Source: Frankineae bacterium MT45 (lineage in GTDB: Bacteria > Actinomycetota > Actinomycetes > Mycobacteriales > Jatrophihabitantaceae). Taken from it: a stretch of 64,000 bases of DNA. The stretch is taken from the NCBI GenBank assembly GCA_900100325.1, contig LT629697.1, positions 1,795,423-1,859,422 of the forward strand. Direction: 5' to 3'. Position numbers and translations under genes: made by a program. How positions within the stretch are numbered: position 1 is the stretch's first letter; each line of letters starts with the position of its first letter. Shown here piece by piece: positions 36,476-42,031 of this stretch. The notes under the pieces are model-generated. The model was not told the DNA's origin and did no database searches. It saw only the letters and a list, made by a program, of their open reading frames with translations.

Positions 36476-37288
36476 TTATGCAGCGGCTATCACCGCGTCG
36501 AGCACACCGTTGGCCGGGACGGCGGTGTAGATGGCGGTGGTGACGGGCGATGCGTGGCCGAGGAGCTCCTGAACGGCCAGCAGGTCGCGGGTGCCCTTGA
36601 ATGCTCTGGTGGCGCAGCGGTGGCGGAGGGTGTGACCGGTCCAGCCGGGGCCGAGGACGCGGCTGAGGAGGACGCCGACGTGTCCGGGGCTGATGTGGCC
36701 GTCGATCTTGCCGGGGAAGAGGTAGTCGCCGCCGGCGCGGTTGAGCGCTCGCAGCAGTTCGCGGTCGACGATGGGGATGAGGCGCACTTTGCTGCCCTTG
36801 CCGACGACGCGCAGTACGTCGTCGTCGCCGAGGTCGGTACCTCGCACTTTGGCGATCTCGGATCGCCGCAGGCCGCCCAGGGCACCGAGGCGGATCATCA
36901 GTCTGTCGCGCTCGGTCGCTTGGGCGAGTGCCTCTTCGTAGACGGTTGTCGGCGTTGGCCGGGGGCCGGCCTTCGGTACCCGAACGCGGGGGAGGTTCGC
37001 TGCCGGGTCTTCGTCGACGAGGCCTTCGTTCTTGGCCCATCGGTAGAACATGATGACGGTGGTCCTCGACGACTGCCGAGTGTTCTTAGCCCAGCTGTGG
37101 GCGTTCATCCAGGCGATTAGGTGGTCTCGGGTGACGTCCCAGGGTGCGATGCGCGAGTGCCGTGCGAGGGTCCGGAGTTTCGAGCGTCGAACTTTGAGGG
37201 TGCCAGCGACTGCTCCGGAGGCCTGCATCCAGTTGAGGAATGCCTCGATCGCTACTGCCCAAGCGGAGAAAATCGCCTCGTCGTCCAT
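36476..37288 (-). CDS. Tyrosine recombinase, phage integrase
   Basis: This 270-aa integrase starts at ATG 37286-37288 with GAAAGG upstream; the longer reading to 37408 has no ribosome site. It has an N-terminal SAM-like core-binding domain (about 10-95). Catalytic residues Arg 141 (GGLRRSEI), Lys 164/167 (GKGSKVRLIPI), His-x2-Arg at 219-222 (HTLRHR), His 245 (LLGHASPVTT) and Tyr 254 are visible. It lies beside the tRNA-Lys half site, the expected right attachment site, and is the last gene of the prophage. Confidence 0.95.
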   Translation of the reverse strand: MDDEAIFSAWAVAIEAFLNWMQASGAVAGTLKVRRSKLRTLARHSRIAPWDVTRDHLIAWMNAHSWAKNTRQSSRTTVIMFYRWAKNEGLVDEDPAANLPRVRVPKAGPRPTPTTVYEEALAQATERDRLMIRLGALGGLRRSEIAKVRGTDLGDDDVLRVVGKGSKVRLIPIVDRELLRALNRAGGDYLFPGKIDGHISPGHVGVLLSRVLGPGWTGHTLRHRCATRAFKGTRDLLAVQELLGHASPVTTAIYTAVPANGVLDAVIAAA

Positions 37289-37480
37289 CGTGTGCCTTTC
37301 AACAGTTTCCGGGGGTGAGGAGGAGAAGCATGCTCCGCTTAACCGGGATGAAACAAGATCTAGATTTGAGAGTTGTGTGGGTGTACAACAGACGTCATAT
37401 GTATGCACTGTGCCTAGGCGGCCCGCACCGCGGCGTCGGCCGCCGCTCGCGCCCAGGGCGCAGTTGACGGGTCAAACCGG
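37289..37480 (-). promoter_or_regulatory. Integrase upstream region, probable promoter area
   Basis: This 190-base non-coding stretch lies between the integrase start and the attachment site and is lower in GC than its surroundings. On the minus strand a TTGTAC box lies about 17 bases before an ATCTAG-like box. This is a weak promoter guess. It may also hold integrase arm-type sites, which cannot be assigned by eye. Confidence 0.3.
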
Positions 37481-37519
37481 TAATCGGAATGTTCCTGGTT
37501 CGAGTCCAGGTGGGGGAGC
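37481..37519 (+). other. Prophage attachment site: tRNA-Lys 3' half
   Basis: From TAATCGG (end of the anticodon loop) through the T-arm CCTGGTTCGAGTCCAGG to the acceptor strand TGGGGGAGC, this matches the 3' half of an actinobacterial tRNA-Lys. The 5' half, anticodon and D-arm are missing, so it is an att site and not a gene. The intact tRNA-Lys should be at the other end of the prophage. Confidence 0.72.
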
Positions 37520-37520
37520 T

Positions 37521-37545
37521 AGGGGCCTCGCAACGCGGGGCCTCT
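37521..37545 (+). terminator. tRNA-type terminator hairpin downstream of the tRNA-Lys half
   Basis: An 11-bp stem with two G-U pairs around a 3-base loop (AGGGGCCTCGC, aac, complement) follows the att site and is presumably the original tRNA-Lys terminator. Confidence 0.5.
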
Positions 37546-37575
37546 CGTCATTTCTGGGCCTGTTTGCTGACCTCA

Positions 37576-37596
37576 ACGGTTGAATGACGGTTACGA
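37576..37596 (+). repeat. Direct repeat, left copy (candidate att)
   Basis: 21 nt, one mismatch to 39906-39926. Each copy itself contains ACGGTT twice. Confidence 0.6.
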
Positions 37597-37612
37597 ACGC
37601 GAGCGCAAGCAC

Positions 37613-38042
37613 TCATCGGATCGCCACCACGGCAGCCGGCGGCTCATCGTCGTCGGGTCGTCCGAGGAGATCATCGAGCGCCGTCGCGGCAGCCGGATCG
37701 ACCACCCGCCGGCTCATGTAGACATCCTGGGTCATCGAGATTCGAGCGTGTCCGAGCTGGTCGGCGATCGTCCGAGCACTCAGCCCGTCGCCGTCGAGCA
37801 CCGTCGCAACCTTCTTGCGGTAGCTGTGCGGCACCACCCACTCGAATGGCGTCCCGGCACGGACCTGGCGGAAGTCGCGCTCGACGTTGCTCATGTCTCG
37901 GTAACCGCCGGCCGCATCCGGGAAGACGGGGGCCATCACCGGAGACGAGCGTATGCCGCTCACGCAGCAGACCGACCAGCCACAGCGGCAAGCGAAGCGA
38001 TCTCACACCCGAACGCGTCTTCGGAGCCGCCGGGCGCATTAG
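37613..38042 (-). pseudogene. Frameshifted remnant of a tyrosine recombinase (C-terminal part)
   Basis: Two minus-strand frames read as one broken integrase. The upstream frame (to 38039) has PKTRSGVRSLRLPLWLVGLL, a typical block after the first catalytic region. The downstream frame (37613-37963) continues with VFPDAAGG...DMSNVERDFRQV, HSYRKKVATVLD (His-x2-Arg box) and LGHARISMTQDVYMSR (His and Tyr). A frameshift near 37935 separates them and the N-terminal domain is missing. Confidence 0.78.
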
Positions 38043-38070
38043 GTTCTTCGCCGCGCACTAGGCTGAGTGT

Positions 38071-38164
38071 GCGTCAGTGGCCGAGTGGTACGGCGCCCGC
38101 CTTCATTCGGCCCCTTGGGGCCCCGTCAAAGCGGGAGACGCGCGTTCGATTCGCGCCTGATGCA
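38071..38164 (+). tRNA. tRNA-like gene with possible 23-nt insertion in the anticodon loop
   Basis: The acceptor stem GCGTCAG/CTGATGC, D-arm GCCG-AGTGGTA-CGGC and T-arm GCGCG-TTCGATT-CGCGC all fit tRNA rules. The anticodon stem CCCGC/GCGGG is perfect, but its loop is 30 bases and holds a hairpin (GGCCCC-TT-GGGGCC). Removing 23 bases flanked by TCA would leave CTTCAAA, a normal loop with anticodon TCA. A TAGGCT -10-like box lies at 38059-38064. A class-II tRNA fold is a poorer alternative. It may be a pseudo-tRNA or a modified att target. No CCA is encoded. Confidence 0.45.
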
Positions 38165-38222
38165 CGTGCCCGCAGCAACCTTGTGCCTCGCAGAGAGTCC
38201 CGCACGTCGCGCCTTCAAAGCG

Positions 38223-39086
38223 ATGGCCGGACAGAACAACCACTTCTTGATCACGCTTCTCGTTGGTCTGTCAGCCGTCGAGTCGGGGTCAGCGGATCTG
38301 CCAACCGAGTTCCGCACGTCTTGGGCTCCGCACGACCGCCACCGTTCGGCAACACGCAGCCGTGAATTCGCCATAAAGGCGGCGCTTGCATGGCTGGTGG
38401 ACGCCCTCGATGCCTACGTACGAAACCTGGGGCGCCCGCCGGCGGTTAGTACCGAGGAAATGCGTGCAAACCTCGACGCTTCTGATAAAGCGATGCAAGG
38501 GGTTTCTGGAAGGCTCCAGGTCATCGCGGCAGCCACAGGTCAGGAGCGGTCCGCCGAGGCGGTATTGATGGAGCTTGCGATCGTCTGGCGCAATCGACTG
38601 GTTCATCAGCATGCTTCAAGTCAAGTCCGAAAGGCTACTGAGAAGGCTGCGACTGCGTTGGCGCCGCGATATCTTGACGATTACCAAGGGCTTGTCGTCG
38701 GCGACCTACTCGAGCGACTGAAGCGCAAGACAGCTACCTCCCCGACCTTCAAGGAAGTGGCCGCGATCATCCGGGCGGCGCACAGGTTCGTAGAGAGGAC
38801 TGACCTGTATCTTCTTACACACCTCGATGCAGACAGCTACCTGCGGGAAGTGTTGCGTCAGTACCTCGCAGAGGACAAGGTAGCCAATCCAGCTTCCGTG
38901 AGAATCCGGGCAGGCAATGTCTGGGGAAAGTCGCCGGATCGGTGTCGGTCGACCTTGATGCAGATCGCCTACAACAACGGATTTAGTCCAGCCAAGACAG
39001 CAGCGCCTAACAAGGCGACCCTCGCGTCGCTAGAGGAATTGGTTGGACTTACGCCAGCGCAGGCGATAGAACGACTCGGTGTTTAA
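38223..39086 (+). CDS. HEPN-motif protein of unknown family
   Basis: This 287-aa helical protein has the motif RNRLVH (123-128) in AIVWRNRLVHQHAS, the R-N-x3-H signature of HEPN nucleases. HEPN proteins are often RNA-cutting effectors in defence and toxin systems (family knowledge). The start is uncertain: ATG 38223 is chosen because an upstream in-frame ATG (38160) falls within the tRNA-like sequence. No antitoxin-like partner follows. It sits directly after the tRNA-like gene. Confidence 0.65.
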   Translation: MAGQNNHFLITLLVGLSAVESGSADLPTEFRTSWAPHDRHRSATRSREFAIKAALAWLVDALDAYVRNLGRPPAVSTEEMRANLDASDKAMQGVSGRLQVIAAATGQERSAEAVLMELAIVWRNRLVHQHASSQVRKATEKAATALAPRYLDDYQGLVVGDLLERLKRKTATSPTFKEVAAIIRAAHRFVERTDLYLLTHLDADSYLREVLRQYLAEDKVANPASVRIRAGNVWGKSPDRCRSTLMQIAYNNGFSPAKTAAPNKATLASLEELVGLTPAQAIERLGV

Positions 39087-39128
39087 GGTTTAGCGTTCGC
39101 TGCTGCTTGCCCTGGCAGGCATCGTAAC

Positions 39129-39869
39129 TCAGTTGGACGCGGCTGCCGCGACGTTCTCGCGCGCCGTGATCGACTCGATGAACCAGTACATGTCGTTGAC
39201 TCCGCCGAATCCCGGGCCGCCGGTCAATATCTGAGTCGCCGTCTCGTTCAGATCTGGCAGTTCAGGCTTCAGTTTCGCAGGCGATGGAAAGATGACCTGT
39301 GACCGGTGGTAGGAGGTGCCGGTCAACCATAGGCCGGATTCGTTTCGAAGCGGCCCGACGCGGGCATTGTCGCGCAGCGACCCAATGGGATGCGGCCAGA
39401 ACGGCTCATCGTACGAGACCACGAAGTCCACGTCCCAAGCACTATTCGCCTTCATAGTTTGCGACTGATGCATGCCCGACTGACCATCAATGGTCTCAGG
39501 GCGTTCCTGCAAGACCGCAGCCGCGCGGTACCGAGGTCGCTGAACGTCCCAGGTCCACCTGACTCGAGCAACGCAGTAGGCGCTTGCGGCTACCTCGAGA
39601 CCGTCGAACGAGTATCCATGTCGAGGAAGGTTGTGGTCAAAGGCGAAGCCCAGACCGCCAGCCTCAGAACCCGAACGTCGGTCCGCCCTCACGTGGAAGC
39701 GATGGCCCCCAAAATGGTCGTTCGGACCGTGCACCGATAGATGGTAGACGCCTGCGCTTCCCAGCGGATCGAGATAGAAATCGGACTTCTTCGCGGTAAT
39801 CCGCCACACGTTCCCGAGTGGAGGGGAATCACCGTTGCTGAGCGCAAGGATGATCTGCGTAGGACTCAC
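39129..39869 (-). CDS. Hypothetical protein of the small element
   Basis: This 246-aa protein is beta-rich (NVWRITAKKSDFYLDPLGSA, VYHLSVHGPNDHFGGHRFHV) with no membrane segment or known catalytic motif. It converges on the HEPN gene with a 42-base gap and ends near the right direct repeat. I do not recognise a family. Confidence 0.65.
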   Translation of the reverse strand: MSPTQIILALSNGDSPPLGNVWRITAKKSDFYLDPLGSAGVYHLSVHGPNDHFGGHRFHVRADRRSGSEAGGLGFAFDHNLPRHGYSFDGLEVAASAYCVARVRWTWDVQRPRYRAAAVLQERPETIDGQSGMHQSQTMKANSAWDVDFVVSYDEPFWPHPIGSLRDNARVGPLRNESGLWLTGTSYHRSQVIFPSPAKLKPELPDLNETATQILTGGPGFGGVNDMYWFIESITARENVAAAASN

Positions 39870-39905
39870 ACATCAAGCCTATATAGCGTCTCAGACGCCC
39901 GGCAC

Positions 39906-39926
39906 ACGGTTAAATGACGGTTACGA
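39906..39926 (+). repeat. Direct repeat, right copy (candidate att)
   Basis: 21 nt, one mismatch to 37576-37596; it is followed within two bases by a strong terminator hairpin. Confidence 0.6.
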
Positions 39927-39928
39927 CG

Positions 39929-39969
39929 ATCCCCGGCCGACCCCAGATAGGGAGGGGTCGGCCGGGGAT
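39929..39969 (+). terminator. Strong hairpin terminator
   Basis: ATCCCCGGCCGACCCC pairs over 16 bp with its complement around a 9-base loop. It lies right after the right direct repeat and could have been the terminator of a chromosomal gene or RNA beside which the element integrated. Confidence 0.82.
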
Positions 39970-40287
39970 TTCGGCCCGTTGTGTGTGGATCTGGACGGCG
40001 GCGTTTTGATCCTTCAGTGTTTCTGGGGCACGGTGGCGCGTCGATTGCGCCTCGGCGCGCGGACCATGGTTTGGTGGCCGGTTTCGGCGTAAGTTCTCGG
40101 TCATCGGACGTCCGTCTGTTGGCGGCGGTACAGCGTCGGGCCTTGGGGGCAGCGACACCCGGGCGTCGGTAGCCATCGCATGTATCAGGGGATCGGCGGC
40201 CTCCTCTGCGAGGGTGACAAACCTAACCGAGAGCGACTCACGGAACCGGGGGACCGAGTCGTGAGTAGCCGACCTGAGGAGAGATCA
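39970..40287 (+). promoter_or_regulatory. Structured leader upstream of the C1A peptidase
   Basis: No gene is evident in this 318-base gap. The last ~100 bases contain competing stems (CGACTC pairing with GAGTCG, or ACTCACG with CGTGAGT) ending just before the ribosome site GAGGAGAG. This could be a cis-regulatory leader; I cannot match it to a known riboswitch. Confidence 0.3.
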
Positions 40288-41450: not shown

Positions 41451-41473
41451 GACCTGGCCCGCCGATCTAGGCT

Positions 41474-42031
41474 GTGGGCGTGAGTGAGCGATTCGCGTCC
41501 CGGCCGGCCCCGGCTTGGACGGACATTGATGAGCAGGACTGCAAGGCGCTCTGGGCACGCTTTGATCAACGGTTCAGCTTTCGGGCGGGCGTCGATCCGA
41601 AATTGTGGCCAGCAATTCGCGAGCCGTCTCCATCAGTGACTTTCGATCTGAGCGTTCTCCGTGACGGTGCGCAGCGCGGAGCCGCCTATGACGCGATCAA
41701 CGCCGAAGCACTTCGAGCTTTTGTGTGGGCGCTTCCCGACTGCGACGAAGTCATCGCACTCGACTGGCAACACCCTGCGTACAGGTTCAACCCCGCGAAT
41801 CAAGCGCTGACCTGGGGGGCGGAGTGGAAAATTCCGGTCTACCCGGACGGCGACTACTCCGCCTTCTTGACTGAGGACTACAGCGAAGGCACCTTCGGTC
41901 ACCCGTGGGAGCAAACGATTTGCGTTATGGGCGAGCGGCTCGTCGACTCGCTGGCGCGGTCCTGGGCCACGTGGTTGCCCGTGAAGCGAAAGCGCGGCGT
42001 CACTCAAGAGCGCCTTGGACATGCGATGTAG
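41474..42031 (+). CDS. DUF2716-family protein
   Basis: This 185-aa protein starts at GTG 41474 (41480 also possible). The whole length follows the DUF2716 pattern: WTDIDEQDCKALWARFDQRF, PSPSVTFDLSVL, VIALDWQHPAYRFNP, WKIPVYPDGDYSAFL and GTFGHPWEQTICVMGERLVD. The function of DUF2716 is unknown; genes of this type are frequent in actinobacterial accessory regions. First gene of the island. Confidence 0.82.
   Translation: MGVSERFASRPAPAWTDIDEQDCKALWARFDQRFSFRAGVDPKLWPAIREPSPSVTFDLSVLRDGAQRGAAYDAINAEALRAFVWALPDCDEVIALDWQHPAYRFNPANQALTWGAEWKIPVYPDGDYSAFLTEDYSEGTFGHPWEQTICVMGERLVDSLARSWATWLPVKRKRGVTQERLGHAM

Follow-up and report, generated by a model that had tools for sequence, protein, structure and literature searches.

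Is a tRNA gene with a hairpin in its anticodon loop a broken gene, a tRNA mended by splicing, or an RNA with a different role? The question is raised by a 94-base element of Frankineae bacterium MT45, located in a 64,000-nucleotide stretch of contig LT629697.1 (positions 1,795,423 to 1,859,422) that we refer to as the window. An earlier note, made from the letters of this DNA, left the choice between a pseudo-tRNA and an unusual tRNA with an insertion, and pointed to a HEPN-type gene next door. Our analysis bears out the unusual tRNA. Together with the protein encoded just downstream, it seems to form an undescribed toxin or defence module and not to be a damaged tRNA. The relevant features of the window are the following.

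37576-37596 (+): left direct repeat, 21 bp, an island boundary
37613-37963 (-): C-terminal fragment of a tyrosine integrase (Pfam PF00589, 2.6e-7)
38059-38064 (+): TAGGCT, a possible -10 box, ending 6 bases 5' of the RNA
38071-38164 (+): tRNA-like RNA, 94 bases, CCA not encoded; based on RF00005, pair counts in four relatives and our model R1
38096-38100 (+): anticodon stem, 5' strand CCCGC; CCGC invariant in 4/4 copies
38101-38130 (+): anticodon loop, 30 bases, beginning CTTCA (CTTYA in 4/4 copies) and finishing TCAAA
38109-38122 (+): inner hairpin GGCCC-CTTG-GGGCC, with equivalents in relatives L163 and L165 (5 bp) and L164 (3 bp)
38131-38135 (+): anticodon stem, 3' strand GCGGG; GCGG invariant in 4/4 copies
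38181-39086 (+): HEPN-like protein gene, 301 aa if the start is TTG 38181 (placed by alignment; alternative ATG 38223), with the motif WRNRLVH
39129-39869 (-): second cargo gene; a protein 49.6% identical is encoded on an Arthrobacter plasmid
39906-39926 (+): right direct repeat, 20/21 identical to the left repeat

A tRNA fold with a plugged anticodon loop

By the kind of Rfam/Infernal scoring that the earlier note had proposed as a check, the element has a tRNA fold. Positions 38071-38164 (+) match RF00005 at 55.8 bits (E 1e-10 in the 2.5 kb searched), which lies inside the range of 51.1-77.6 bits spanned by the genome's 46 matches, this one included. Besides this RNA, the genome has a tRNA set that looks normal and complete. 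Pairing is full in every arm (acceptor 7/7 with one G-U, D 4/4, anticodon 5/5, T 5/5), and the cloverleaf with D, T and acceptor arms of an elongator tRNA is present, including in one relative (L164) that was found by R1 and not by Rfam. The unconstrained minimum-free-energy fold of the RNA is not the cloverleaf (-47.1 vs -43.3 kcal/mol). ARAGORN labels the element tRNA-Met(cat), and a whole-window Rfam scan run with fast filters missed it.

The anticodon loop is 30 bases long with a 5-bp hairpin inside it (CTTCATTCGGCCCCTTGGGGCCCCGTCAAA), as the earlier note had described. Taken by itself, this hairpin is equalled in stability by 36 of 200 dinucleotide shuffles; a single sequence could therefore not settle its significance, which rests on the relatives described below. 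The four copies found have loops of 30, 26, 26 and 29 bases in place of the 7 bases of an elongator tRNA, and in each the inner hairpin sits in a symmetric internal loop (8/8, 6/6, 6/6 and 8/8 bases by reading of the sequences). If one counts from the 5' side, the triplets in the place of the anticodon are UCA, UUA, UUA and UCA, all of which match stop codons; since only about three lineages are represented, we treat this as a curiosity.

The promoter-like box reported ahead of the RNA is also present, as TAGGCT, and is suggestive only as a promoter element. No sigma-70 two-hexamer match occurs in 37500-39200. The hexamer is found three times in the window, where 7.8 are expected, each time just 5' of a feature, and nine times in 138 kb of the genome, where the other six are by eye mostly not obviously 5' of a gene. 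The other two boxes of the window, at 39876-39881 (-) and 41468-41473 (+), directly precede the ORFs 39129-39869 (-) and 41474-42031 (+, DUF2716), a placement that suggests leaderless mRNAs. In 37500-39200 the only terminator-like site is at 37521-37545, and there is none between the RNA and the gene that follows.

Relatives of the RNA-protein pair and their mobile settings

When the adjacent protein was compared by tblastn with 72,556 plasmids, a single match was obtained, on a conjugative plasmid of Sinorhizobium americanum (L163; 33% over 264 aa). The DNA 5' of that gene contains an Rfam tRNA match of 91 bases and 52.6 bits with a long, hairpin-bearing anticodon loop, at a locus where ARAGORN reported no tRNA. 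A profile of the two proteins led to two IMG/VR contigs, one at 38% and the other at 28% identity; they are referred to as L164 and L165. The RNA of L165 scores 56.1 bits against RF00005. Rfam misses that of L164, which is degenerate (two unpaired arm cells, a 6-base T-loop and a 3-bp hairpin) and was first spotted by eye. A profile of all four proteins returned nothing beyond the same two viral loci, and 50,697 phage records yielded no relative of the protein.

In all four copies found, the tRNA-like RNA, 89-94 nt in length, lies directly upstream of the protein gene. The gap to the start codon is 16 bases in the window with the TTG start at 38181, or 58 if the gene begins at ATG 38223, and 18, 17 and 8 bases in the relatives. 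In L163, L165 and L164, respectively, a TTGACA or TTGACC starts 38, 37 and 33 bases 5' of the RNA. Because L163 and L165 are close (80.6% identical over 252 bases of DNA), the four copies amount to about three lineages. With an actinomycetote host on one side and the alphaproteobacterial Sinorhizobium on the other, the pair probably crosses phyla. The earlier note had looked to homologues with a shorter loop; the homologues found, which stand beside the same protein family, all have the long loop.

Base changes in the arms support the cloverleaf. Across 21 pairs in four RNAs, with element boundaries that we set ourselves, 82 of 84 cells are paired, both exceptions being in L164, and nine pairs have changed on both sides (acceptor 2, 4, 5, 6 and 7; D 3 and 4; anticodon 1; T 3). 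When the three relatives were fitted to R1, an alignment that follows the structure and is thereby biased towards it, 97.3% of 75 cells were paired and 6 pairs were two-sided. Each of these values was reached by 1 of 500 shuffles, and slid structures were paired at no more than 52.1%; the measure of further pair types was unexceptional, with 56 of 500 shuffles as high. Conservation is uneven along the molecule. The anticodon stem (CCGC/GCGG) and the loop start CTTYA are invariant, whereas variation is seen in the acceptor sequence, at position 73 (A, G, T, T) and in the 3-70 pair. This contrast suggests recognition of the anticodon arm by the protein, with aminoacylation by any particular synthetase being beside the point.

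R1 gave 63.6 bits for L165, 61.6 for L163 and 32.0 for L164 (E 1.6e-5 in 24.6 kb). The first two top the best ordinary tRNA (56.7 bits) by just 5-7 bits and L164 falls below many ordinary tRNAs, so that R1 alone does not cleanly separate the family from ordinary tRNAs. In three overlapping samples of 397, 394 and 396 genomes (E cut-offs 1e-3, 1e-5 and 1e-6), scored with strict filters and at most 10 candidates per genome, a design that does not show the RNA to be rare, matches turned up in 141, 40 and 40 genomes, counts that include the window's own genome. Leaving aside the RNA and its minus strand, the matches listed were 72-75 bases long, and those inspected were ordinary tRNAs. In the window, and likewise in each of three relatives, a scan for a cloverleaf with a long loop picked out the RNA and nothing else. 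Among 156 control loci (687 kb, excluding eleven that contain either the family or the region of the window itself), it matched 3 of 312 strands, at L019, L065 and L075, each match overlapping an ordinary tRNA gene. A strict pattern found nothing in 84,980 species genomes, and viral pattern scans gave nothing or chance matches (34 stretches with no tRNA by eye; 17 with none by ARAGORN). Peptide patterns from the window protein alone recovered no relative in viral contigs or genomes, and a protein search of 298 genomes of the order recovered only the window's own genome. Other genomes of the order (L051, L052, L056, L064, L065 and L075) contain dense tRNA arrays that include divergent tRNAs, with as many as 27 packed into about 3 kb.

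The protein next door is a probable HEPN protein. HEPN proteins are defined by an Rx4-6H motif with a polar residue after the R, at the end of helix 3 and leading into the loop after it (passages of PMC3710099). All four proteins carry this motif, as WRNRLVH in the window and WRNRSAH, WRNRSAH and WRNKRVH in the relatives (WRN[RK]xxH). An AlphaFold model made from an alignment of three sequences (A6) had a pLDDT of 77.3 and a pTM of 0.74, while that from the single sequence (pLDDT 41.9) was unusable. In the former, the motif at residues 137-142 ends a predicted helix at 125-141, as expected at the end of HEPN helix 3. The top six VIA-align rows (Z 8.0-10.7) comprised five HEPN toxin entries and 5yep (SO_3166-SO_3165), which we take to be a HEPN/MNT pair; Z values below about 13 can reflect a common arrangement of helical bundles. 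From Z 7.0 downwards the rows were mostly unrelated helical proteins, with 3jrt, an integron HEPN domain according to part of PMC3710099, at 5.4. Foldseek gave no significant match, the best HEPN row (E 1.1) ranking 20th behind 19 unrelated rows. We regard a HEPN fold of the 301-aa protein as likely. Profile searches give the family no name: none of Pfam, NCBIfam, PADLOC or PHROG scored above cut-off for the window protein, nor did any named family for the plasmid protein in the scans run, PADLOC for all four proteins, or PHROGs for those of L164 and L165. The HEPN-type gene proposed in the earlier note is present as a HEPN-like gene, by motif and predicted fold, and unnamed by profiles.

All four copies lie on mobile DNA, one of them in a defence or toxin-antitoxin neighbourhood. 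In the window, the RNA is outside the prophage, within a 2.35-kb island between the direct repeats that holds the integrase fragment, the RNA, the 301-aa gene and the second cargo gene. Allowing up to 3 mismatches, the 4.23-Mb genome has no match other than these two repeats, and when the region was dinucleotide-shuffled 200 times, the best pair agreed at 18 of 21 positions, short of the observed 20/21. Across 24 genomes, the repeat pattern had one 3-mismatch match (G014), and a reversed control also matched once (G006). Over 37637-37939 the integrase fragment is identical at 61 of 101 aa to the corresponding part of an integrase in L090, whose N-terminal parts have no match in the window; the ORF at 37671-38039 (-) has no PHROG match. 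The Arthrobacter plasmid is the only plasmid match of the second cargo gene, which accordingly has no match on the Sinorhizobium plasmid. The one genome of the same genus matches at the flanks; between them its sequence differs and holds other ORFs. The adjoining prophage ends at 37481-37522 in an attR that is a 42-bp copy of the 3' end of tRNA-Asn; its attL is the intact tRNA-Asn upstream of the window (G000:1790720-1790792), and its integrase is at 36476-37408 (-). On the far side of the prophage, 24 bases comprising the tRNA-Asn gene start and the sequence immediately 5' of it are repeated (23/24) at 39989-40012, next to an inverted repeat at 39929-39969; we read this arrangement as the mark of an older rearrangement at a tRNA-Asn hot spot. 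The surroundings of the RNA match Microbacterium phages and Arthrobacter plasmids.

The neighbours of the plasmid copy (L163, 5390-8768) are ApeA (HEPN_Apea; PF18862 plus PF18739), a RES-domain gene and a protein with sub-threshold Xre-like similarity. In L164 (3942-5834) the copy comes after genes for portal and head proteins and one of phrog_6367. In L165 (4845-6524) it is flanked by a tail gene and a phrog_6367 gene, both encoded on the other strand from it, and a CI-like repressor is close by. The same virion-region family, phrog_6367, occurs beside both modules in differing orientation, as expected of independent cargo insertions.

A mimic that may restrain a putative ribonuclease

We put at about even the chances that a non-decoding tRNA mimic restrains the HEPN-fold ribonuclease encoded downstream of it, the two forming a mobile module. 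The RNA and the protein gene, 8-18 bases apart, are probably transcribed together. The hairpin that plugs its anticodon loop should keep the mimic from decoding and would probably make it a poor substrate for an anticodon nuclease. The protein is predicted to recognise the invariant strands of the anticodon arm, CCGC-CUUYA ... ARA-GCGG. Bound to the mimic it would be inactive, and the mimic would act as an RNA antitoxin, a role established for ToxIN and suggested for AbiF/RCd22; were the mimic to disappear or be out-competed, as might happen in a phage infection, the enzyme could cut tRNA or other RNA, and growth would stop. We infer the ribonuclease activity, the RNA-protein binding, the antitoxin role and the trigger alike. 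A bolder version, to which we give somewhat less than an even chance, is that the pair represents a new RNA-regulated class of HEPN toxin or phage defence, in which the plugged, stop-triplet tRNA mimic is a built-in decoy for an anticodon nuclease, spread by phages, plasmids and islands among distant bacteria. More generally, a dedicated non-coding RNA can hide behind a "tRNA" call with an odd loop, as the labels of ARAGORN illustrate: Met here, and nothing at the plasmid locus.

Two alternatives keep the RNA functional, and both seem improbable to a similar degree. The mimic may be a bait or sensor, such that phage or host enzymes that cut or modify tRNAs alter it and the change activates the HEPN enzyme instead of releasing it. 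The full tRNA body, the conserved strands of the anticodon arm, the variable identity bases and the phage and defence-gene neighbourhoods would all fit such a role. Alternatively, the RNA may be a cis-acting leader that controls translation, or one whose excision by RNase P, tRNase Z or the HEPN protein autoregulates its own message. The short distance to the start codon (apart from the longer gap if the window gene begins at ATG 38223), the promoter-like boxes just before the RNA and the lack of a terminator-like site ahead of the window gene are consistent with a leader, but a complete tRNA fold with conserved T and D arms would not be needed for such control.

We consider it very unlikely that the element is a pseudo-tRNA, a tRNA gene of a mobile element broken by the chance insertion of a hairpin. 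Such a relic would agree with the fragmentary integrase beside it, with the shuffles that equal the inner hairpin taken alone, and with the lack of long-loop copies among the matches listed in three genome samples. Against it, the plugged loop, the arm pairing and the position before one gene family recur on a plasmid and two phage-like contigs, in differing sequences. The repeated pairing and the kept loop speak strongly against both a relic and a spliced suppressor. Derivation from one of the genome's own tRNAs was tried and rejected (best own score 40.5 of a possible 66, compared half by half); the best of 211 tRNA sequences from the fetched loci were Gly tRNAs of other same-class genomes, at 45-46 of 66.

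Less probable still is a charged, non-decoding alanyl-tRNA used outside the ribosome. G3-U70 is the alanine identity signal, and the window copy has it along with A73; among the other 45 tRNAs of the genome it occurs only in Ala-cgc and Ala-tgc, as found by script, and in Ala-ggc, where the script register was one base off and the pair was read by eye. In the relatives, however, the 3-70 pair is G-C and position 73 is G, T and T; the alanine identity is thus not conserved.

The enzymes that splicing or selenocysteine decoding would call for have no match in the genome: searches for RtcB, tRNA_int_endo and SelA were all negative, and the same searches were positive in 9, 4 and 2 of 14 control genomes. 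The absence of the splicing enzymes disagrees with an intron-bearing tRNA, and the absence of SelA, together with a 7/5 branch, with a selenocysteine tRNA. An excisable 23-mer or intron was rejected on account of the relatives and the missing enzymes. TGA recoding was likewise rejected, as read-through after TGA is not longer than after TAG or TAA (medians of 30, 35 and 40 codons for 71, 29 and 13 ORFs, spurious ones included). Hardly credible is the suggestion of the earlier note that removing 23 bases from the RNA restores a UGA-reading (opal) tRNA: CTTCA...TCAAA does read as a canonical CTTCAAA loop in the window copy, but the TCA repeat is absent from the three relatives, whose long hairpin loops differ in sequence, those enzymes are unmatched, and the genome's tRNA set looks complete besides this RNA.

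Comparison with known systems

The CoCoNuTs paper contains nothing on such an RNA-HEPN pair in the passages considered (PMC11090510). An open-access literature search, with most subscription papers outside its scope, found, among the titles and abstract openings listed, no description of a tRNA mimic paired with a HEPN protein. Other tRNAs of unusual build differ in where they depart from the norm: in allo-tRNAs and selC* tRNA-Cys, the altered part is the acceptor/T branch. The RNA described here resembles the 8/4 and 9/3 allo-tRNAs and selC* tRNA-Cys in its unusual architecture and, for some of them, a UCA anticodon (PMC7609411, in part); the same passages treat an anticodon loop of 7 bases as standard and do not name a plugged loop. 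It also resembles tRNA-Other of Bacillus cereus, a pseudo-tRNA that is tRNA-shaped, non-translating and situated beside a genomic island, and that has a Trp anticodon, with a HEPN partner unmentioned in the passages considered (PMC3399842).

By VIA-align, the model of the protein is closest to HEPN-MNT systems, with 7ae6, 7ae2, 7ae8, 7ae9 and 5yep as its best matches, and the protein shares their RNxxxH motif. Unlike those systems, in which the antitoxin is an MNT protein, an RNA is present here, and the neighbouring genes scanned with Pfam, in the window and L163, include no MNT-type gene.

The toxins of type III toxin-antitoxin systems are, to our knowledge, not HEPN proteins. The arrangement of ToxIN, CptIN and TenpIN is nevertheless similar, with an RNA directly upstream of an RNase-like gene and a relation to phages. 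Type III antitoxins consist of repeats of 34-50 nt followed by a terminator before the toxin gene (PMC12373285, in part), unlike the single-unit RNA found here, which is separated from its gene in the window by 16 bases that include no terminator-like site.

A 2025 paper reportedly traces Cas13 to RNA toxin-antitoxins. A close likeness is to AbiF/RCd22 of Clostridioides difficile, where a structured RNA also precedes a HEPN-like protein on phage-borne DNA. In the passages of PMC12373285 considered, RCd22 lies upstream of the AbiF/AbiD1 (Abi_2) protein, binds it tightly and is treated as its antitoxin; it carries a pair of abiF stem-loop motifs (RF03085), 33 and 35 nt long, as well as a terminator. 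The RNA described here is instead one tRNA mimic of 89-94 nt, with no terminator-like site between RNA and gene in the window. No Abi_2 Pfam match was found for the window and plasmid proteins, and no abiF motif (RF03085) at E up to 1 in 37000-39500 or in the scanned stretches of L163, L164 and L165. The precedent of AbiF with RCd22 makes a HEPN enzyme restrained by an RNA plausible (PMC12373285, in part). The same passages propose RNA-partnered HEPN ribonucleases (AbiD/F) as a root of Cas13 and cite the cleavage of tRNA anticodons by Cas13a. If our proposal is true, a HEPN enzyme with a tRNA mimic would link the world of RNA-partnered HEPN ribonucleases to tRNA-cutting immunity, and the mimic would directly suggest the target of its enzyme.
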